From Limnohabitans sp. TEGF004 (GTDB lineage: Bacteria; Pseudomonadota; Gammaproteobacteria; Burkholderiales; Burkholderiaceae_C): a DNA stretch of 64,000 bases. Position numbers and translations under genes: made by a program. The stretch lies in the NCBI RefSeq assembly GCF_027924965.1, contig NZ_AP027056.1:1922001-1986000 (forward strand), read 5' to 3'. Below are positions 29,023-38,274 of this stretch, piece after piece. Below the pieces are notes generated by a model that made no database searches, was not told the origin of the DNA, and saw nothing but the letters and a program-made list of their open reading frames with translations. The number at the start of each line of letters is the position of its first letter. The stretch's first letter is position 1.

Positions 29023-29099
29023 TGGTGCGGCTGGCAGGAATCGAACCCACGACCCCTTGGTTCGTAGCCAAGTACTCTATCCAGCTGAGCTACAGCCGC
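29023..29099 (-). tRNA. tRNA-Arg (anticodon ACG)
   Basis: The minus strand gives a 77-nt cloverleaf with acceptor GCGGCTG/CAGCCGC, D arm AGCTCAGCTGGATAGAGT, anticodon loop CTACGAA (ACG, read with inosine), T loop GTTCGATTC and encoded CCA. Confidence 0.96.
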
Positions 29100-29130: not shown

Positions 29131-29176
29131 TGGTAGGGCGTGACAGACTTGAACTGTCGACCAAAGGATTATGAGT
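29131..29176 (-). pseudogene. Displaced 3' half of a CAT-anticodon tRNA (left attachment site of the island)
   Basis: Read on the minus strand, these 46 bases run from the anticodon loop through the T arm to the CCA end and match the 3' half of the intact tRNA at 36283-36359 at 42 of 46 positions. The first 18 (core GACCAAAGGATTATGAGT on the plus strand, 29159-29176) are identical. The four differences form two compensated T-stem pairs. To the right of 29176 the tRNA match stops abruptly. This is the pattern of an original tRNA cut by integration of an element that brought its own 3' half. Confidence 0.85.
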
Positions 29177-29427
29177 TTGATGGTCTGTCTTCTGGGTTTC
29201 CTAGACTACATAAGGGCTAGCAAAGGATTTGACTTTCTACCACTTCGAACTACTTTGACGAATTTATGCCGTTTTCGGGGGTGTTTCAAACAACTTTGTA
29301 GAAAGATGTAGTGCTTGGCATTGGAAATCCAAATGAAATCAAGGACAAAATTCTGGCTTGTGTTCAAAGCGAAAGATGAGCATAGCTCGTCTGCTCTACC
29401 AATTTTTATAGTGAAGGCCAGCCAAGA
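29177..29427. other. Gene-free left end of the island
   Basis: About 250 bp between the displaced tRNA half and the EamA gene hold no convincing gene. Seen here are TTTCTAC at 29234-29240 and TTTGTAGAAAG at 29295-29305, which recur as an inverted pair at the right end (36205-36224), and a 16-nt piece at 29387-29402 that resembles a tRNA D arm on the minus strand. No integrase remnant is readable on either strand. Confidence 0.6.
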
Positions 29428-30477
29428 ATGAACCGTGATGTTTTTTATGCACTGCTTGCAGCTGCTCTCTTTGGTGCGAGCACGCCGTTTGCAAAAGAGC
29501 TAATCGGTGATGATGCTCCGGTCATGTTGGCGGGTTTGCTTTACTTAGGCAGCGGGATAGGCCTTGTGCTAATTCGACTTATCCGCGACAAAGGTTGGAC
29601 TGTCCCAAATCTTGCGACTTCCGAATGGTCTTGGTTCTCAGGTGCGATCTTATTTGGTGGTGTTCTGGGACCTGTCGCTTTGCTATTTGGCTTAGAACAA
29701 ACGACTGGATCAACAGCCTCGCTACTACTCAACTTAGAGGCAGTGCTGACGGCACTAATTGCTTGGGTAGTTTTCCGTGAGAGTGCAGACAAGCGCATCG
29801 TGCTTGGCATGGTAGCTATCGTTCTCGGAGGAGGAGCATTGTCTTTTCAAACAATCGGCGAAATCGGCTTCAACTGGTCGGGGCCAATGCTGATTGCAGC
29901 AGCATGCCTTTGTTGGGCGATTGACAACAACCTTACCCGCAAAGTGTCGGCCTCAGATGCATTGTTCATTGCTGGAGTTAAGGGACTAATCGCAGGCTCG
30001 GTCAATTGCGCACTCGCATTGCTGATAGGCCTATCTTTGCCCACTGGCATCGCTACCATTTCGACCATGACACTTGGTCTGATTGGCTACGGTTTGAGTT
30101 TTGTGCTGTTTGTATTGGCGCTTCGTGGATTGGGAGCGGCTCGGACAGGCGCGTACTTCTCAACAGCTCCATTCATAGGGGCAACAATATCAGTTCTTTG
30201 GTTCGGTGAGCCAACAGGTGGCTTATTCTGGCTAGCAACTTTATTGATGGCAACTGGGGTCTGGATACACCTTACAGAACTCCATGAGCATGCGCATCAT
30301 CACGAGGCGCTGGATCATGAGCACAAACATGCGCACGATGAACACCATCAGCACATTCACAGCTTTGCGTGGGATGGCCATGAACCACATGTTCACAGAC
30401 ATGTCCACGCGGAAGTGACGCACAAGCACCCCCATTACCCAGACATTCACCATCAGCACACACTGAGGAATGCTTAG
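29428..30477 (+). CDS. EamA/DMT-family transporter with histidine-rich C-terminal tail
   Basis: The 349-residue protein has two EamA halves with about ten transmembrane segments in residues 1-285 (start MNRDVFYALLAAALFGASTP; second half from about 150). The cytoplasmic or periplasmic tail from about 288 holds some 24 histidines in 60 residues, with patterns HEHAHHH, HEHKHAHDEHHQHIH and THKHPHYPDIHHQH. DMT proteins are usually metabolite or drug exporters; the tail points to a metal ligand or sensor role, which fits the copper genes downstream. The substrate is unknown. The stop codon lies in the first of three tandem octamers. Confidence 0.88.
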   Translation: MNRDVFYALLAAALFGASTPFAKELIGDDAPVMLAGLLYLGSGIGLVLIRLIRDKGWTVPNLATSEWSWFSGAILFGGVLGPVALLFGLEQTTGSTASLLLNLEAVLTALIAWVVFRESADKRIVLGMVAIVLGGGALSFQTIGEIGFNWSGPMLIAAACLCWAIDNNLTRKVSASDALFIAGVKGLIAGSVNCALALLIGLSLPTGIATISTMTLGLIGYGLSFVLFVLALRGLGAARTGAYFSTAPFIGATISVLWFGEPTGGLFWLATLLMATGVWIHLTELHEHAHHHEALDHEHKHAHDEHHQHIHSFAWDGHEPHVHRHVHAEVTHKHPHYPDIHHQHTLRNA

Positions 30478-30496
30478 TCACTTAGTCACTTAGTCG
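30473..30496. repeat. Three tandem octamers CTTAGTCA/G
   Basis: CTTAGTCA, CTTAGTCA and CTTAGTCG follow each other exactly. The first contains the TAG stop of the EamA gene. It looks like a local slippage duplication. Confidence 0.7.
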
Positions 30497-30564
30497 GGCA
30501 CTTCTTACATTTGAATCCTCCTAGGGGCTTTGTCTCAATATAGAAACCATGCTAATATTGAATC

Positions 30565-30960
30565 GTGAAAACCGTGAGATTTTTAGTGATGTGTCTGCTT
30601 GCTCTTGCAATTCCATTGCAAGGGATGGCTTCGGTCACTCAAATGTTTTGTCATGGTGGCGGTGCGGCTTCTTCGGTCGTTCAAACAGCGGCTGATCACT
30701 CGCATCATCAAGCCGCTGATCATCATCACGACCAGACCCAGCCTTCGGATCATCAAGTATCCAAAGCTGAGACTGCTAAGAGCTTGAATCACAAATGCAG
30801 CACTTGCGCCCAATGCTGCTTTGGCACAGCTTTGTTGCCAGCGCCGATCAACTTGGTTTTCAGCCAAGAAGTCAGCACCTTTGTCGCGACCAGCGCCGTG
30901 CTCTTGGGTGAGTTTTCTCCCCACAACTTAGAGCGACCTCCGCGTTCCTTCCTCGCCTGA
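30565..30960 (+). CDS. CzcI-like periplasmic His/Cys-rich protein
   Basis: The 131-residue product begins at a GTG (VKTVRFLVMCLLALAIPLQG) and has a Sec signal ending near MASV. The mature part contains a histidine-rich stretch HSHHQAADHHHDQ near residues 47-59 and a cysteine motif KCSTCAQCCFG at about 79-89. Small proteins of this form stand in front of metal efflux genes in Burkholderiales and are grouped loosely with CzcI; they are assumed to bind the metal in the periplasm. No good ribosome site precedes the GTG, so the start is tentative. Confidence 0.7.
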   Translation: MKTVRFLVMCLLALAIPLQGMASVTQMFCHGGGAASSVVQTAADHSHHQAADHHHDQTQPSDHQVSKAETAKSLNHKCSTCAQCCFGTALLPAPINLVFSQEVSTFVATSAVLLGEFSPHNLERPPRSFLA

Positions 30961-31056
30961 GCAATTTAGCAACCTTGCGGTTGCGCGAATTGCAGCTCGT
31001 TCTCGTGATTGATCGACATCACGAGAGTCGATTGCTTCATGGTTAACGAGGAATCT

Positions 31057-31368
31057 ATGTATCCCAAATCTCCAAAGCCGCCACAGCTGACTGCAGCTGT
31101 ATTGCTTGCCTGCCTTCATTGGAGCAGTGCTTGGGCGCAGAATGACATCAAACTCGAAGTTCGGACTCCGGAGAAATCCGTTGAGTTGATCTACCAGTCT
31201 TCTTTTGAAAATTACCAGCGCTACTCTGCGTCCACTGTCCAATCTTGGAAGCAGAGCAATGACACTGTGAAAGACATTGGCGGGTGGCGTGCGTATGCCA
31301 AAGAGATCACGCAAGACACAGACGCTAAGCCGTCCACTCCGGCGCATATTCATGGAGGTCACCAATGA
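31057..31368 (+). CDS. Exported protein of unknown function in the copper cluster
   Basis: The start at ATG 31057 has a CGAGGAA site five bases upstream and gives 103 residues with a signal peptide ending at SSAWAQ. The mature protein has no cysteine and contains WKQSNDTVKDIGGWRAYAKE near 65-84, and it ends AHIHGGHQ, a possible metal-binding tail. I do not recognise a named family. Its stop overlaps the start of the outer-membrane efflux gene by four bases, so it is translationally coupled to it. Confidence 0.72.
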   Translation: MYPKSPKPPQLTAAVLLACLHWSSAWAQNDIKLEVRTPEKSVELIYQSSFENYQRYSASTVQSWKQSNDTVKDIGGWRAYAKEITQDTDAKPSTPAHIHGGHQ

Positions 31369-32783
31369 ACCTCAAATTCAAATCAATGGTGCTAACGGCA
31401 GTCGCTCTTGGGTTGTCCGGCTGTGCCAGCTACAACTTAGATCAAGGTATAGACAGAGCCAATCGTGAAGCCAGTGGCTTTACCCAAAACGAGTTGAACC
31501 TTGCAAAAACCAAGGAAGAACGTGACAAGCGTCTTGCTGCTACGAATCAACTTTTAGCCAAGCCCGTTGGACAAAAAGAAACCGTCCAGTTGCTGCTGGC
31601 CAACAGCCCTGCGTTCCAAGCCTTGCTGGCTCAAAACTGGGCCGAAGCAGCAAGTGCGGCGCAGTCGGGGCGAATCTCCAACCCCACCTTCGCTTTTGAA
31701 AGCGTGGTGACGGGCAGTGAGACTGAGCTGAATCGCTTCTTCTCGTTTGGCTTGTTGGACCTGATCACCTTGCCTCAACGTTCGGCGATAGCTAACCATC
31801 GCGTTGAACAAGCTCAAATTCGCATTACAGCGGAGGTGGTGGATCAAGTCACCCGCGTGCGTCAAGCATGGGTGCGTGCGGTTGCGGCAGAGCAGTCGTA
31901 CAAGTATGCAGGCCAAGTGTTAGCCAGCGCAGAAGCGAGTGCGGAGTTGGCCCGGCGGATGGAGTCTGTAGGTAACTTCAACAAACTCACGCGAGCAAGA
32001 CACCAAGCGTTTTATGCAGATGCTGCCACCCAATTGGCAACAGCCAAACAAACGGCTGTGTCACGCCAAGAGGAGCTGGTGAGGCTCTTGGGTTTGGATG
32101 AGGTGCAAGCCAAACAGCTCGTGCTTCCTGAGAGATTGCCTAATCTTCCAAAACAACCCATGTCACCTGAGGACGTAGCCAAACAAGTCAGCCAAGAACG
32201 CTTGGATGTCCAGCAAGCGAAAGCGGCGTTCAACGCAGCGGCCAAAGCGCAGGGCTTGAACAGGGTGACGAGTTTGACGGACATCGAGCTGTCTGTGCGA
32301 CGTGGCAGCGTATCAGACAGCAGCACATCGTCCTACAGCTCAAGACGTGGTTATGAGGTTGGCGTGAAGTTACCCATTTTTGATTGGGGCGATCTGCAAC
32401 GCGATGCCATGAACGCTCAAACCTTGGCCGCAGCCAATCAACTGGAAGCCACGATTCGTTCTGCTGGGTCGTCCCTACGTGAGAACTATGCGGCTTACCG
32501 CACAGCCTATGACATCTCTAGGCATTACAAAGATGAAGTTATTCCGCTTCGTAAGGTGATTTCAGAAGAGAACGTGCTGCGCTACAACGGCATGATCATT
32601 GGCGTTTTTGAGTTGCTGGCTGATTCGCGTGACCAAATTGGCACCGTCATTTCGGCCATCGCCGCAGAGCAACAGTTTTGGTTGGCTGATGCCGCCTTGC
32701 AAGCGACATTGATTGGTCGCCCAACTGCTATCGGTGTAGCTGCCATCAGCAGCACATCAAGTAATACGGCTGCTGGCCATTGA
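31365..32783 (+). CDS. TolC/CusC-type outer-membrane efflux lipoprotein
   Basis: This 472-residue outer-membrane factor has a lipoprotein signal (LTAVALGLSGC, lipobox LSGC near residue 20) and two outer-membrane-efflux repeats. The helical segments include ETVQLLLANSPAFQALLAQNW, IANHRVEQAQIRI and the second-half counterpart GYEVGVKLPIFDWGDLQRD near 325-343, a typical beta-strand-to-helix junction of the family. It would form the trimeric outer-membrane duct of a tripartite metal exporter, yet no membrane-fusion or RND gene is present in the window. ATGA-coupled to the preceding gene; 12 bp before the oxidase gene. Confidence 0.9.
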   Translation: MNLKFKSMVLTAVALGLSGCASYNLDQGIDRANREASGFTQNELNLAKTKEERDKRLAATNQLLAKPVGQKETVQLLLANSPAFQALLAQNWAEAASAAQSGRISNPTFAFESVVTGSETELNRFFSFGLLDLITLPQRSAIANHRVEQAQIRITAEVVDQVTRVRQAWVRAVAAEQSYKYAGQVLASAEASAELARRMESVGNFNKLTRARHQAFYADAATQLATAKQTAVSRQEELVRLLGLDEVQAKQLVLPERLPNLPKQPMSPEDVAKQVSQERLDVQQAKAAFNAAAKAQGLNRVTSLTDIELSVRRGSVSDSSTSSYSSRRGYEVGVKLPIFDWGDLQRDAMNAQTLAAANQLEATIRSAGSSLRENYAAYRTAYDISRHYKDEVIPLRKVISEENVLRYNGMIIGVFELLADSRDQIGTVISAIAAEQQFWLADAALQATLIGRPTAIGVAAISSTSSNTAAGH

Positions 32784-32795
32784 TCGGGGATCGAC

Positions 32796-34208
32796 ATGAC
32801 ATCAAGACGAGATTTTTTCAAAGCAGCAGGCATTGCGGGAGGCGCTGTCTCGGCAGCAGCTGTGGGTCGTTTCGCATTGGCTGGATTGCCAGAGCCTGTG
32901 ATTCAGTCCAAGCCTGACACCATGCCGCCTTTGGTCCCCAACACCGGACGCCCCTACAACCCCGTGGTCACACTCAATGGCTGGACTCTGCCTTGGCGCA
33001 TGAACCAAGGGGTCAAAGAGTTCCATTTGGTCGCCGAGCCTGTGGTGCGTGAGATGGCACCCGGCTTCAAAGCGCATCTTTGGGGCTACAACGGGCAAAG
33101 CCCCGGCCCAACCATCGAGGTGGTCGAAGGCGATCGCGTGCGTATTTTTGTGACCAACAAATTGCCAGAACACACCAGCGTGCATTGGCATGGTCAGCGT
33201 TTGCCCAATGGCATGGATGGTGTATCGGGCTTGACGCAACGGTCGATCAAACCGGGACAAACCTTTGTCTACGAGTTTGTGGCACGACGTCCGGGCAGTT
33301 TCATGTACCACCCACATGCCGATGAAATGACGCAGATGGCGATGGGCATGATGGGCCTGTGGATCACGCACCCTAAAGAAAAGCACCCCCTCATCGACGA
33401 GGTGAATCGCGACTTCTGTTTCTTGTTGAACGCCTTTGACATTGACCCGGGCAGTTACACGCCCAAAACAATGACGATGCTGGACTTCAACCTGTGGAGT
33501 TGGAACAGCCGCATCTTTCCGGGCATTGATTCGTTGAATGTCAGGCTCAATGACAAGGTGCGCATTCGCGTGGGTAACTTGACCATGACCAATCACCCGA
33601 TTCACTTGCATGGCCACGAGTTCACGGTCACGGGAACGGACGGTGGCCCCATTCCAAAAACAGCTCGTTGGCCAGAAGTCACGACCGATGTGGCAGTGGG
33701 GCAAATGCGGCAGATTGAGTTTGTGGCTGATGAAGAAGGTGACTGGGCATTTCATTGCCACAAGAGCCATCACACCATGAATGCCATGGGTCATGCTGTG
33801 CCTACCATGATTGGTGTGGACCATCGAGGTATTGGTAAGAAGATCAACAGCTTGATTCCCGATTACATGGTGATGGGTGAGCGCGGGATGGCCGATATGT
33901 CTGAAATGGAAATGCCCATCCCTGACAACACGATCCCGATGATGACGGGTGACGGGCCTTTCGGGTCTGTCGAAATGGGCGGCATGTTCAGTGTCCTGAA
34001 GGTCCGCAAAGACCAGAAACCGGGTGACTACGAAACCCTCGGTTGGTACAAACATCCGGCAGGAACGGTGGCTCAGCCCTACAGAGGTGCTGTGGCTAAA
34101 CCGGCTCGCAACAGTTCAGCAGGTGGGCAATCCATGCCAAGGTCTCAAAAGCCGCCCAAAGATTTTGAAGTGCAGATTCGCAAACCTACAGCACATGGTG
34201 AGCATTGA
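32796..34208 (+). CDS. Multicopper oxidase (copper-resistance type)
   Basis: The 470-residue periplasmic oxidase probably converts Cu(I) to the less toxic Cu(II). The N-terminal MTSRRDFFKAAGIAGGAV is a twin-arginine signal. All four copper-ligand motifs are seen: HWHG near 134, HPHADE near 172, HPIHLHGHEF near 270 and the HCHKSHHTM type near 327 with a Met-rich segment (MSEMEMPIPDNTIPMM) near 370-385. The third motif follows the second closely, so the protein looks like a compact two- to three-domain enzyme. It lies between the efflux protein and the cupredoxin gene on one strand. Confidence 0.93.
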   Translation: MTSRRDFFKAAGIAGGAVSAAAVGRFALAGLPEPVIQSKPDTMPPLVPNTGRPYNPVVTLNGWTLPWRMNQGVKEFHLVAEPVVREMAPGFKAHLWGYNGQSPGPTIEVVEGDRVRIFVTNKLPEHTSVHWHGQRLPNGMDGVSGLTQRSIKPGQTFVYEFVARRPGSFMYHPHADEMTQMAMGMMGLWITHPKEKHPLIDEVNRDFCFLLNAFDIDPGSYTPKTMTMLDFNLWSWNSRIFPGIDSLNVRLNDKVRIRVGNLTMTNHPIHLHGHEFTVTGTDGGPIPKTARWPEVTTDVAVGQMRQIEFVADEEGDWAFHCHKSHHTMNAMGHAVPTMIGVDHRGIGKKINSLIPDYMVMGERGMADMSEMEMPIPDNTIPMMTGDGPFGSVEMGGMFSVLKVRKDQKPGDYETLGWYKHPAGTVAQPYRGAVAKPARNSSAGGQSMPRSQKPPKDFEVQIRKPTAHGEH

Positions 34209-34235
34209 CTCGACAACTCGAAACGGAGAATTCAA

Positions 34236-34724
34236 ATGAAACGAACAAAAAGCCAAATCATGATCTTGTTAGCGGCACTTTTTCTATCTGGTGCGGCTAT
34301 AGCGGGCGGCGATCATCCAGCTGGTCACGGCCATGTAGAGCATGAGAGCGCGATCGGTAAGTCTGGTTCGGCAGGAAGCGTCAATCGGACGATCACTGTC
34401 AGCATGACTGACAACATGCGCTTTACTCCTTCCAATATTTCAGTCAAGCAGAGAGAAACCGTGCGGTTCATCATCAAAAACAATGGTCAAGTCAAGCACG
34501 AATTGAGTTTGGGCACTCAAAAGGAATTACTTGAACATTTGGAGTTGATGAAGAAGTTTCCCGACATGGAGCATGACGAACCAAACAAAGTCACCCTTGT
34601 CCCCGGGCAGCAGGGTGAAATTATTTGGCAGTTCACCAAAGCGGGCATCGTCAATTTCGCCTGCTTGATGCCCGGCCACTACGAAGCCGGAATGAAAGGC
34701 ACGATCAAAGTTGGCAAAAAGTAA
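34236..34724 (+). CDS. Periplasmic cupredoxin (plastocyanin-like)
   Basis: The 162-residue protein has a signal peptide ending at SGAAIAGGD and a His-rich mature start (HPAGHGHVEHE). The cupredoxin fold begins near ITVSMTDNMRFTPSNISVKQ. Type 1 copper ligands are visible as His in QVKHELSLG near 89 and Cys, His, Met in FACLMPGHYEAGMKG near 140-155. It likely shuttles copper or electrons with the neighbouring oxidase. A GGAG site precedes the ATG. Confidence 0.92.
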   Translation: MKRTKSQIMILLAALFLSGAAIAGGDHPAGHGHVEHESAIGKSGSAGSVNRTITVSMTDNMRFTPSNISVKQRETVRFIIKNNGQVKHELSLGTQKELLEHLELMKKFPDMEHDEPNKVTLVPGQQGEIIWQFTKAGIVNFACLMPGHYEAGMKGTIKVGKK

Positions 34725-34752
34725 TTTTTTACAGAGAAAAGGAGCACAAGCT

Positions 34753-35229
34753 ATGACCTCCCAAATTACCCCGCTGAATCTCACGAGGCGCTCAGTATTG
34801 TTGAGTCTGGTTGCGCTGAACGGCTCTTCAATTGCCGTCGCAGCAAGCCCGATTACTGTCCAAATCTGGAAGGACCCTAACTGCGGTTGCTGCAAAGACT
34901 GGATTGCGCATATGGAAAAAAACAACTTCGCAACGAAAGTCATGGACCAAGGCAACAGCGCCGCGCGTGCTCGGTTGGGGATGCCTCAAAAGTTTGCTTC
35001 CTGCCACACCGCACTCATCGAAGGCTATGTGATTGAGGGGCATGTGCCAGCCATAGATATTCAGCGACTGCTGAAAGAAAAGCCACAGGCTTTGGGTCTA
35101 GCTGTTTCCGGGATGCCGATCGGATCACCCGGTATGGATGGCCCAGCCTATGGCGGTAAGCATGACGCCTACCAAGTCTTATTGATCCAAAAAGACGGGT
35201 CATCCAAAGTTTTTCACTCTTACGCATGA
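34753..35229 (+). CDS. DUF411 metal-binding exported protein
   Basis: The ATG at 34753 has a strong AAAAGGAG site and yields 158 residues. An export signal with a twin-Arg-like start (TRRSVLLSLVALNGSS) is followed by the DUF411 core VQIWKDPNCGCCKDWIAHM with the CGCC motif near residues 43-46, CHTALIEGYVIEGHVPA and LAVSGMPIGSPGMDG. DUF411 proteins accompany copper and cadmium resistance genes; the CxCC pair and the Met-rich loop are probable metal sites. Biochemical role not established. Confidence 0.9.
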   Translation: MTSQITPLNLTRRSVLLSLVALNGSSIAVAASPITVQIWKDPNCGCCKDWIAHMEKNNFATKVMDQGNSAARARLGMPQKFASCHTALIEGYVIEGHVPAIDIQRLLKEKPQALGLAVSGMPIGSPGMDGPAYGGKHDAYQVLLIQKDGSSKVFHSYA

Positions 35230-35236
35230 GGTTTAC

Positions 35237-35536
35237 ATGAACACACTCAAAAAGACGCTCGCTTTATTCACGCTTGCAATGGGTATGGCTCTGCCGTTGA
35301 GCGGATTTGCTCAATCCCTGACGGATGGAGAAGTCAAGAAGGTAGACCTTGAGGCAGGCAAAGTCACGATCAAGCATGGCGAGATCAAACACTTGGAAAT
35401 GCCAAGCATGACCATGGTTTTCACAGCCAAAGACAAACGTTTGTTGACCAGCATCAAGCCGGGCGAAAAAATTAAGTTTATGGTTGTAAGCGAAGGCGGC
35501 AAGATGATCGTGACTGACATCCAGCCAGCCGATTAA
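35237..35536 (+). CDS. CusF-like periplasmic copper-binding protein
   Basis: This 99-residue protein has a signal peptide ending SGFAQ and the small OB-fold of CusF: VKKVDLEAGKVTIKHGEIKH, EMPSMTMVFTAKDKRLL and a C-terminal strand. E. coli CusF binds Cu(I) with one His, two Met and a capping Trp. Here the two Met (SMTM) and upstream His are kept, but the position of the Trp reads Met (EMPSMTM against the NWPEMTM type). It begins 8 bp after the DUF411 gene. Confidence 0.88.
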   Translation: MNTLKKTLALFTLAMGMALPLSGFAQSLTDGEVKKVDLEAGKVTIKHGEIKHLEMPSMTMVFTAKDKRLLTSIKPGEKIKFMVVSEGGKMIVTDIQPAD

Positions 35537-35622
35537 AAACACGTTGTATCGGCGTGCAGTGCTGCTCCAGCAACCTACGGGTTTGCGCAAGTAGCTGTTT
35601 TCAAACTTGTAAGGGAAAAATC

Positions 35623-36113
35623 ATGACAAACATTCGCAACTCACTCATTGGACTATGTGTCGCGGCAGCTTCGATGGGTTCTTTTGCCCAAAACGCCGAT
35701 GAACATAAAGATCACCATCCAGCGGGAACAACTGCGTCCGCTGCGACGACCAAAAAGACGCCTGTCAAATCCGTGAATGAAGACAAGATGGCCTCGATGG
35801 ATAAGCAAATGAAAGCTATGCAGGCGATGCACAAAAAAATGGCATCTGCCAAAACTCCAGAGGAGCGCCAAGCACTGATGGGTGAGCACATGAAGATGAT
35901 GCAAGACGGCATGGGCATGATGAAGCAAATGGGTGGTATGTCCAGCATGGGGGGGGCATGCAAGGTGGCAAGGACATGAGCGGCAACATGGCTGATCGTC
36001 AGCAGATGATGGAAAAACGCATGGAGATGATGGAGTCCATGATGCAAATGATGATGGAAGTGAGCGAACAGGTGTTATCTGCACCAACGCAAAAAGTGCG
36101 TGTAGCGTTGTAA
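35623..36113 (+). pseudogene. His/Met-rich periplasmic protein, interrupted at a run of eight G
   Basis: The reading frame starts at ATG 35623 with a signal peptide (MTNIRNSLIGLCVAAASMGS, cut near SFAQ) and a DEHKDHH motif, then runs into Met-rich helices (MDKQMKAMQAMHKKM; MKMMQDGMGMMKQM). At 35949-35956 eight G follow AT; in this frame translation stops at 35979 after 118 residues. One frame over, coding continues as MQGGKDMSGNMADRQQMMEK and further Met-rich sequence to a TAA at 36111-36113. Six or nine G would restore one protein of about 163 residues. It is either a disrupted gene, a phase-variable switch, or a sequencing error in a homopolymer. Confidence 0.75.
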
Positions 36114-36282
36114 AAAGCAATTTCATGCAGCTCCGTACAACATAGCGAATGCTGGGAGAAGTCGCCAAAAGTTGCGACCGTGCTCTCCCCCTCCCCCAAA
36201 GATTTTGTAGAAGAGTTTCTACAAGAGCGCCTCAGAAACAAGAAAGCCCGGCATGAAAGCCGGGCTAAGTCCTTGATTTGAT
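36114..36282. other. Right end of the island with inverted TTGTAGAA pair
   Basis: No gene is seen. The segment contains the inverted repeat TTGTAGAA-gagt-TTCTACAA (36205-36224), related to motifs at the left end, and the terminator of the minus-strand tRNA. Confidence 0.6.
36245..36266 (-). terminator. Terminator of the CAT-anticodon tRNA
   Basis: The stem AGCCCGGC/GCCGGGCT with a six-base loop is followed on the minus strand by TTTCTTG. It is 16 bp beyond the tRNA 3' end, so it came with the island side. Confidence 0.75.
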
Positions 36283-36359
36283 TGGTAGGGCGTCACGGAC
36301 TTGAACCGTGGACCAAAGGATTATGAGTCCTCTGCTCTAACCAACTGAGCTAACGCCCC
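36283..36359 (-). tRNA. tRNA with anticodon CAT (tRNA-Ile2 type or elongator tRNA-Met)
   Basis: The minus strand gives a complete 77-nt cloverleaf: acceptor GGGGCGT/ACGCCCT (G1-U72 wobble), D arm AGCTCAGTTGGTTAGAGC, anticodon loop CTCATAA, T loop TTCAAGT and encoded CCA. The segment GACTCATAATC and TTTGGTC around the anticodon and variable loop resembles tRNA-Ile2, whose C34 becomes lysidine, more than elongator Met; this assignment is tentative. Its 3' half was probably supplied by the adjacent island. Confidence 0.85.
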
Positions 36360-36477: not shown

Positions 36478-38274
36478 ATGACCTTCGAGATCCTCAGCTC
36501 TCTTAAGAGCCACATCATTCGCTGGCCACGCCATTTGCTGATGGCTGGCGGCCTTTGCTTGCTCGTCGCGTGTGGTGGCGGGGGCGGGGGCGGCTCGTCC
36601 AACACTGCTGCCACGACTTCAGCGCCAGGAGTCACATTCAGCCAAGTGAATGCCAATGCAACGGTCTATTCAGGCAACAAGATTCAATTAACCCCTAGCT
36701 ATAACTATGGCTCAGGAGTGATCACATGGACCGACGGCAACGGTCAAGCACAAACACGCCAAGTGGTTAATCCAGGTACGCCAATTGACGACTACCCAAC
36801 GGCTACGACCACTTACACACTCACAGTGAAGTACCAGGATCCAAGCTCCGTGCGTCCTAGCGAGCTAACCATCACAAAAAACGTAACCGTCACACTGACA
36901 GCCATTGACATCGTGACACCAACGCTCGCACTGGCTAGCAGTGCACCATCTGTGATTTCAGGCAATACGGTCACGATCACACCAACCGTCACTTACGACA
37001 GCAACAAGCTCAGTATTTCAAATTGCGTCATCACCACCACAACAACCACCACCATCACCACGGCCGCCTCTACCACCTGCCCAACGCTGACACCAACAAT
37101 TACCGCCAACACAACCTTCACGATGCAGGTGCAGTATGTGGACATTCGCGAAACACCTCACCGCACATTCCCAACGCTGCAAACAACAACCATCGTCAGT
37201 GTTTCCACAGACCCATTACCTTTGACAGCTGGTGGTGCACTGACGACGGGTCGAACAGAACAAATTGCAATTCTTCTACCGACAAACAAAGTGCTTGTCG
37301 CTGGTGGCACAAACAACGGCACGACGCCACTGAAAACGGCAGAGCTGTATGACCCCAGTACCAATACATGGACGACCACTGGCAGCATGGCGGTGGCTAG
37401 ACGTGGTCACACAGCGACCTTGCTGTTAGATGGCAAGATATTGGTGGCCGGGGGCTTCGACGGTGCAGTTGAATCTGTCACAACCGAAATCTACGATCCA
37501 GCAACGGGCATTTGGACAGCATCTGGTCCTATGACGCGCGGTCGAAAGTACCACACAGCATCGCGCTTGAGCGATGGAAAAGTTTTGATCGCAGGCGGCA
37601 TCGTTGCAACCAACGTAGGAGACGGACGAGTCGCTGAGATTTACGCCCCTCTCACGGGTACGTTCACATCCATGCCACTGACGCCATCCACAGCGTTGAT
37701 GTCCACGCCTCGTAGCAAACACACGGCCAGCGTATTAAGCGATGGCGTCACTGTGGTGTTAACCGGTGGGTTTGACCCCGCCGTGCAAACAACCACCGAA
37801 GTATTCACTTACAACGCGACCACGCCCACCAGTTCAACATGGGCAACAGGGCCTACCTTGACGCAAGGTCGTCATGACCACGCTGCCAGCATATTGGCTG
37901 GGACCAAAAAAATACTTTTAACTGGTGGCTATACAAACACAACTGAAATTTGTGACTTCACGACCTTCACTGCACCAGTTCCTAGTTGTTCAGCGAGTAC
38001 CTCTATGTCAACAACGCGAGCCCTGCACACCAGCACCAATCTGTCGAACGGGAAGGTGCTGATCATCGGAGGAACAGATGGCTCAGCCTTACTGAAATCG
38101 ATTGAGCTATTCACACCACTAGGAGCCAGCTGGGAAAACTACGCCAAAGTTTTACGAACAGCACGTGCAGGCCACTCGAGCACGCTACTCAGCAACGGCA
38201 AAGTTTTGATCAGTGGTGCTGACAATCAGGTATCAGGTGTCACAACACCGACCACTGAATTGTGGGAACCTTGA
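36478..38274 (+). CDS. Kelch-repeat lipoprotein
   Basis: The 598-residue protein has a lipoprotein signal with lipobox LVAC followed by seven Gly. Residues about 45-260 form two Ig-like beta modules rich in Thr, including a run of Thr near 190. From about 265 to the end six kelch-type repeats occur, each with the form HTATLLLDGKILVAGG followed by a variable loop and TEIYDPATGIW. This predicts a beta-propeller displayed at the cell surface or in the periplasm; glycan or protein binding is possible but not shown. It is beside the island but outside its repeats. An unrelated protein with a short barrel is encoded downstream. Confidence 0.85.
   Translation: MTFEILSSLKSHIIRWPRHLLMAGGLCLLVACGGGGGGGSSNTAATTSAPGVTFSQVNANATVYSGNKIQLTPSYNYGSGVITWTDGNGQAQTRQVVNPGTPIDDYPTATTTYTLTVKYQDPSSVRPSELTITKNVTVTLTAIDIVTPTLALASSAPSVISGNTVTITPTVTYDSNKLSISNCVITTTTTTTITTAASTTCPTLTPTITANTTFTMQVQYVDIRETPHRTFPTLQTTTIVSVSTDPLPLTAGGALTTGRTEQIAILLPTNKVLVAGGTNNGTTPLKTAELYDPSTNTWTTTGSMAVARRGHTATLLLDGKILVAGGFDGAVESVTTEIYDPATGIWTASGPMTRGRKYHTASRLSDGKVLIAGGIVATNVGDGRVAEIYAPLTGTFTSMPLTPSTALMSTPRSKHTASVLSDGVTVVLTGGFDPAVQTTTEVFTYNATTPTSSTWATGPTLTQGRHDHAASILAGTKKILLTGGYTNTTEICDFTTFTAPVPSCSASTSMSTTRALHTSTNLSNGKVLIIGGTDGSALLKSIELFTPLGASWENYAKVLRTARAGHSSTLLSNGKVLISGADNQVSGVTTPTTELWEP

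Follow-up and report, generated by a model that had tools for sequence, protein, structure and literature searches.

Copper genes between two tRNA pieces

The DNA analysed here, called the window below, is the whole 64,000-nt stretch of the freshwater bacterium Limnohabitans sp. TEGF004 (NZ_AP027056.1, positions 1,922,001 to 1,986,000, forward strand), and the subject is a 7.1-kb island of copper-handling genes at 29177-36310, which lies between an intact transfer RNA (tRNA) gene and a displaced copy of the 3′ half of such a gene. An earlier reading made without database searches (the sequence-only reading) had proposed that the island entered a CAT-anticodon tRNA gene by site-specific integration. 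The features at the two ends, with their attachment (att)-like sites, are as follows.

29023-29099, minus strand: tRNA-Arg(ACG), the left host flank (ARAGORN, Rfam)
29131-29176, minus strand: displaced 3′ half of a tRNA-Ile2, T-stem type GACAG, attR-like end with the core at 29159-29176 (BLAST, 91.3% over 46 nt)
36283-36359, minus strand: intact tRNA-Ile2(CAU), read as rebuilt, attL-like end with the core at 36311-36328 (ARAGORN; Rfam RF00005, 70.5 bits)

Positions 32-77 of the intact tRNA are the part that aligns with 29131-29176 on the same strand, and the displaced half lies ∼30 nt from tRNA-Arg, at a place where relatives have a whole tRNA. A search of the 2.77-Mb genome for the 18-nt core, ACTCATAATCCTTTGGTC, with at most one mismatch gave two sites, both of them at the tRNA pieces, and the reversed pattern, used as a control, gave none. 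The intact gene, the 3′ half in the same orientation and the identical core of the sequence-only reading were thus all confirmed, and the core is not a chance repeat. The anticodon CAT was found in three of the 42 tRNA hits of the genome, all of which were inspected; from their sequences we read 36283-36359 as the tRNA-Ile2, apparently the sole one in the genome, and the other two as elongator and initiator tRNA-Met, which refines the CAT-anticodon assignment made earlier.

Compared with the intact tRNA, the displaced half has four mismatches, all in the T stem, where they make up two compensatory pairs (CACGG/CCGTG vs GACAG/CTGTC); the chance that four random mismatches give two complete T-stem pairs is 6e-5. 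Because the differences are compensatory, the displaced half comes from a working tRNA of another type and not from a decayed duplicate. The genes between the two pieces are listed below.

29428-30477, plus strand: EamA-family transporter with a His-rich tail (PF00892, 3e-30; a homolog lies beside the att site in the related genome G062)
30565-30960, plus strand: small His-rich protein, weakly like the CzcI and CopL families and under both cut-offs (family profile search)
31057-31368, plus strand: small protein, no match in the family profile searches
31365-32783, plus strand: outer membrane efflux protein (PF02321, 6e-14)
32796-34208, plus strand: multicopper oxidase (PF07732/PF07731; TIGR01480, 146 bits against a cut-off of 479)
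34236-34724, plus strand: CopI-like cupredoxin (PF00127; NF051440, 117 bits against a cut-off of 280)
34753-35229, plus strand: DUF411 protein (PF04214)
35237-35536, plus strand: CusF-like periplasmic copper-binding protein (PF11604, 4e-26)
35623-35979, plus strand: small His/Met-rich protein whose frame is cut short after eight consecutive G (open reading frame (ORF) reading)

Several of these proteins stay below curated cut-offs; the CopA-type family TIGR01480 is one such case, and 32796-34208 is named a multicopper oxidase by Pfam only. The guanine-cytosine (GC) content of the island, 0.512, is the minimum among all 7.1-kb stretches of the window (mean 0.556). The cargo is as the sequence-only reading described it, a His-tailed transporter with a copper oxidase gene set, and it is foreign by its GC content and by homology with G062. 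The window has a single homopolymer of G or C that reaches eight letters, the G run at 35949-35956 where the last frame stops early; in the G062 homolog the frame continues.

Origin of the island at a reused tRNA site

Thirty greB loci, taken from 61 genomes, were scanned for the state of the site in relatives. In five Limnohabitans genomes (G016, G014, G024, G036 and G006) the site is empty, with one tRNA-Ile(CAT) 29-52 nt from tRNA-Arg beside greB, and the G016 empty site can be aligned with the window on either side of the island, in each case as far as the core. The expectation of the sequence-only reading that relatives without the cargo have a single tRNA next to tRNA-Arg was thus borne out in five genomes of the same genus. 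In G013 the two tRNAs lie 525 nt apart; the remaining loci were cut by a contig end, had neither tRNA near greB, or had tRNA-Arg alone. The nearest relatives by GreB identity, Limnohabitans sp. Jir61 (G033, 91%) and G009 (89%), carry unrelated DNA at the site, which in Jir61 consists of two tandem elements and another inserted gene before tRNA-Arg, and in G009 of a 6.3-kb cluster, with TACCA alone remaining of the displaced half. Limnohabitans sp. B9-3 (G011) has a 9.7-kb element there. The tRNA-Ile2(CAU) site is a reused hotspot for mobile elements.

Two side observations concern the occupants and neighbours of this site. The G009 cluster (L064:3795-9919) contains ORFs read by eye as a Rieske-type oxygenase, a reductase, an aldolase-like protein and a regulator, probably a catabolic cluster. 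Adjoining the tRNA in the window is a gene for a Kelch-repeat protein (36478-38274), and Jir61 has a related gene in the equivalent position (L074:17716-19707).

In G062, a counterpart of the block 29424-36058, with 72-81% conservation, forms the distal end of a 33.8-kb element at tRNA-Asn. The order of that element is intact tRNA-Asn, integrase, resistance-nodulation-division (RND) pump, P-type ATPase, copper block, EamA gene and displaced tRNA-Asn half, and the distance from the displaced half to the start of the EamA gene is 393 nt, vs 252 nt at tRNA-Ile2 in the window. Because both the cargo and the layout around the displaced half match, the window resembles the distal end of a G062-like element without the integrase, RND pump and ATPase. 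At E 0.001, none of nine proteins of that element used as queries (integrase, RND pump, fusion protein, first outer membrane efflux protein, ATPase, TPM, LemA, methyltransferase and Crp) had a match in the window. The G062 tRNA-Asn site (L277-L280) also holds an array of displaced halves, in which three of the four att copies are followed by an integrase.

In our reading, to which we give a probability of roughly 0.8, a tyrosine-integrase island inserted itself into the anticodon loop of the genome's one tRNA-Ile2(CAU) gene, and 29177-36310 is a relic of it that has no integrase. Both tRNA pieces, the empty sites, the alternative occupants, the foreign cargo and, in a relative, a whole element that carries this cargo at a different tRNA are observed; from these we infer the integrase family of the hotspot as the agent, a deletion and the loss of self-mobility. 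In this scheme an element would have entered the anticodon loop, a foreign 3′ half (T stem CACGG) supplied by the element would have restored the tRNA, and the earlier 3′ half (T stem GACAG) would have ended up next to tRNA-Arg, at the far end. A deletion would then probably have removed the integrase and the central part, leaving the att-like ends and the far-end cargo (EamA and copper block). Except for the missing integrase, such a mechanism is ordinary.

Further evidence comes from putative arm-type sites of an integrase, which lie near both tRNA pieces.

29290-29310, minus strand: putative arm-type sites at the displaced end, CTACATCTTTCTACAAAG (read by eye)
36201-36224, minus strand: putative arm-type site or sites, inverted repeat TTGTAGAA-ACTC-TTCTACAA (TTCTACA motif)

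Of the five copies of the motif TTCTACA in the window, three fall within the 434 nt adjoining the two tRNA pieces. Moreover, CTTCTACAAAATC is also present at the corresponding place in the second Jir61 element (L218), and in 15 of the 16 elements inspected by eye, similar tandem sites lie in the stretch from the truncated half to the replacement tRNA. These arm-like sites may loosely tie the window to the integrase family of its relatives.

Several points weigh against this origin. The window encodes no integrase, the best tblastn hit with the Jir61 integrase having an E-value of 8.0, and the genome has no match to the integrase family used at this site. Because a tyrosine integrase, which an autonomous element needs, is absent near the tRNA, the island is regarded as a relic and not as an active element; of the tyrosine-recombinase integration proposed in the sequence-only reading, the att-like ends at the anticodon loop stand and the enzyme is missing from the window. 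The motif TTCTACA was chosen after the relatives had been viewed, and two of its three end copies make up one inverted repeat. The copper genes are not bound to the island, since a close multicopper oxidase (at least 77% identity) is found at 17 loci in 15 of the 84 genomes of the genus, among them the window's own and four of the five empty-site genomes; in 10 fetched surroundings of such genes (8 genomes) no CAT tRNA was near. The core is confined to its two sites in this genome, and the cargo that the sequence-only reading wished to trace is also found elsewhere in the genus. Finally, the displaced half could be older than the copper block and stem from a previous element.

This last point may be extended to a layered history, in which the displaced half dates from an older element and homologous or illegitimate recombination afterwards exchanged the copper block into the already occupied site. 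The missing integrase and the repeated use of the site, as in Jir61 with its tandem elements and extra gene and in G009 with its other cargo and bare TACCA, would agree with it, whereas the arm-like sites at both ends and the ∼250 and ∼225 nt of non-cargo sequence between the cargo homology and each tRNA piece fit one element; we consider such a history rather unlikely. We judge it improbable that the island is a small but complete element that has always lacked an integrase and is moved in trans by enzymes of this family, since the same cargo in G062 sits in an element with its own integrase and such a small element was not seen a second time, even though both ends are kept and such integrases are common in the genus (matches at E ≤0.001 in 39 of 84 genomes, many of them distant). 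Another conceivable source of a half tRNA beside other tRNA genes is the decay of a tandem duplicate, in which case the copper genes would have nothing to do with it. We give this origin hardly any credence: the half begins at the anticodon loop, all its changes are compensatory, relatives have one tRNA at this place, and the empty sites speak against it. Thus, integration at the tRNA gene is supported, and the sequence-only reading was right about the island.

Replacement tRNA genes and their introns

The elements of the relatives are built in another way, although their tyrosine integrases act on the same anticodon loop, through a core of 7-9 bp. In Jir61, B9-3 and G028 the host 5′ half, which ends in CTCATAATC or CTCATAA, is followed after ∼150 nt by a second full 5′ half, a group I intron of ∼200 nt and the 3′ half, and in Jir61 and B9-3 the integrase starts ∼100 nt past the 3′ half of this replacement tRNA. 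The core common to both ends is CTCATAATC (9 bp) in B9-3 and CTCATAA (7 bp) in G028. The host 5′ half is left dead, and the element carries a complete replacement tRNA-Ile(CAU) of the same isotype. In G082 and G105 the tRNA arrangement is the same; the host half is decayed in G105, which fits a dependence of the cell on the replacement tRNA.

For a wider survey, genome_contigs was searched with an alignment of four such integrases, and candidates needed one of two short peptide patterns. This yielded 72 integrase loci from Limnohabitans, Polynucleobacter, Rhodoferax, Rugamonas, Oxalobacteraceae, Methylophilaceae and others. An intron lies within 1.4 kb upstream of the integrase at 22 of them (21 found by motif, and L183 by hand from a covariance-model match), and 14 of the 72 have two tRNA 5′ halves as well as the intron. 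An intronless tRNA-Ile(CAT) is present at ten more, accompanied by a truncated half in five cases, and a tRNA-Lys at ten; at the other loci no tRNA was recognised within 1.2 kb, with six of the 72 having less than 600 nt upstream. A phage origin found no support in viral_contigs, where none of 112 pattern matches encodes a relative of these elements. The Jir61 integrase is named by PHROGs and not by Pfam, and a search by sequence returned no solved structure of these integrases.

The two tandem Jir61 elements at one tRNA have a type A and a type B intron (L063:5205-5465 and L063:15631-17064). ORFs at L063:8410-14442 in the second were read by eye as a complete type I restriction-modification system (HsdR, HsdS and HsdM). 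Each of three elements from Jir61 and B9-3 also encodes a second short protein of 190-222 aa like the catalytic domain of a tyrosine recombinase (L074:11659-12324, L063:14959-15627 and L075:12111-12683; the Pfam match was tested for the first only).

Group I introns of ∼200-250 nt are known from the anticodon loop of bacterial tRNA genes such as the tRNA-Ile(CAU) of Azoarcus; the interrupted tRNA of the relatives differs in that an integrase-bearing element carries it as a replacement gene. Thirteen introns, picked by hand from 13 loci, fall into three groups by identity. Type A introns are 74-98% identical among themselves, the Rugamonas intron is 53-60% identical to type A, and type B introns are 86-89% identical among themselves and 46-54% to type A. 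There are two insertion points in the anticodon loop (after CAT, and between T33 and C34). All 13 introns have U at −1 and a terminal G, and ARAGORN recognised a tRNA in 13/13 cases after the intron was removed. The introns are probably self-splicing. In a search of nine element loci with RF00028, three were over the gathering score (L183, L239 and L230) and five under it at E ≤0.001, while L217 matched only if searched alone (25.9 bits). The covariance model backs type A and the Rugamonas intron well and type B weakly (26-34 bits), so that a group I assignment is the weaker claim for type B. The introns are not bound to the elements, as RF00028 matches at E 0.01 in 33 of 84 genomes of the genus (13 over the cut-off), mostly with no integrase seen in the short flanks; the window and its genome have no RF00028 intron. 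An Oxalobacteraceae element has a type A intron 90% identical to that of B9-3 in visibly different tRNA exons, a combination that fits horizontal spread.

Our tentative view, held at somewhat less than even odds, is that the tRNA-Ile(CAU) group I introns in these Proteobacteria are passengers of replacement tRNA genes in tyrosine-integrase elements. By breaking the only tRNA-Ile2 of its host, the element would force dependence on the intron-bearing copy, and because of this dependence the intron would need no homing endonuclease to spread. The split anticodon loop may hide the replacement gene from the integrase, and intronless elements may reach the same end through an altered anticodon stem.

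We offer such shielding from the element's own integrase as an option only. The replacement anticodon stem differs from attB in 0/17 intron-split genes and in 4/5 intronless ones (Fisher p = 0.0007, or ∼0.02 after rough hand grouping, the rows being related and the stems compared partly by eye). Left out of this comparison were L192, whose upstream 5′ half is partial and lacks the core, L181 and L188, in which the core was found and a half was not, L178, which lies at a contig edge, and L218, which has a tandem junction in place of the host half. Against shielding, L182 is intronless with its 5′ stem strand unchanged, CTCATAA is still present in six of the 17 intron-split genes, and a Jir61 element sits at the CTCATAA of an intron-bearing tRNA (L063:5205-5465).

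Comparison with known systems

Taken alone, the window island is of a known sort, copper cargo in a tRNA gene, and the variation on known systems lies in the integration system at the site. The tRNA-gene islands of the Islander catalogue (PMC4383910) have a rebuilt tRNA at one end and a displaced 3′ fragment in the same orientation at the other. The window island is like them in both respects and differs by having no integrase left and a crossover in the anticodon loop.

We found no prior description of intron-split replacement tRNAs in integrative elements in the open-licence literature. A similar layout is that of the archaeon Caldiarchaeum, in which a mobile element disrupted tRNA-Thr and, according to PMC3293823, a recombinase gene separates a 5′ tRNA fragment from a tRNA that contains an intron. 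The relatives' elements share the layout of fragment and split tRNA, with bacterial group I introns and tyrosine integrases in place of archaeal introns. In IStrons a group I intron hosts the transposase of an insertion sequence, as outlined in PMC4227781; both systems pair a group I intron with a gene for DNA mobility, and here the intron lies in a tRNA adjoining the integrase. The hotspot suggests that tRNA introns ride on elements which make the host depend on their tRNA, and these elements offer a possible vehicle for the sporadic spread of such introns. If the replacement tRNAs work as proposed, this would explain how tRNA-Ile(CAU) introns entered scattered bacteria, as well as the strong variation within the genus of the 3′ half of an essential tRNA.

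A functional parallel is the tRNA-dependent lysogeny of mycobacteriophages, which, according to PMC10865867, has a short core (about 10 bp), a host tRNA that is not rebuilt and a replacement tRNA of the same isotype. The relatives' elements agree in these three traits. The window element, by contrast, rebuilds its tRNA in place and has no relic 5′ half upstream. The relatives' elements also depart from the phages of PMC10865867, as far as these are described there, in that an intron is often present, no viral contig matches them, and the replacement tRNA stands at the attL end, flanked by the truncated half and the integrase; the word "intron" appears once in the main text of that paper, in a reference title. 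If our view holds, a dependence strategy so far described for actinobacteriophages would also be used by elements without a viral-contig match.

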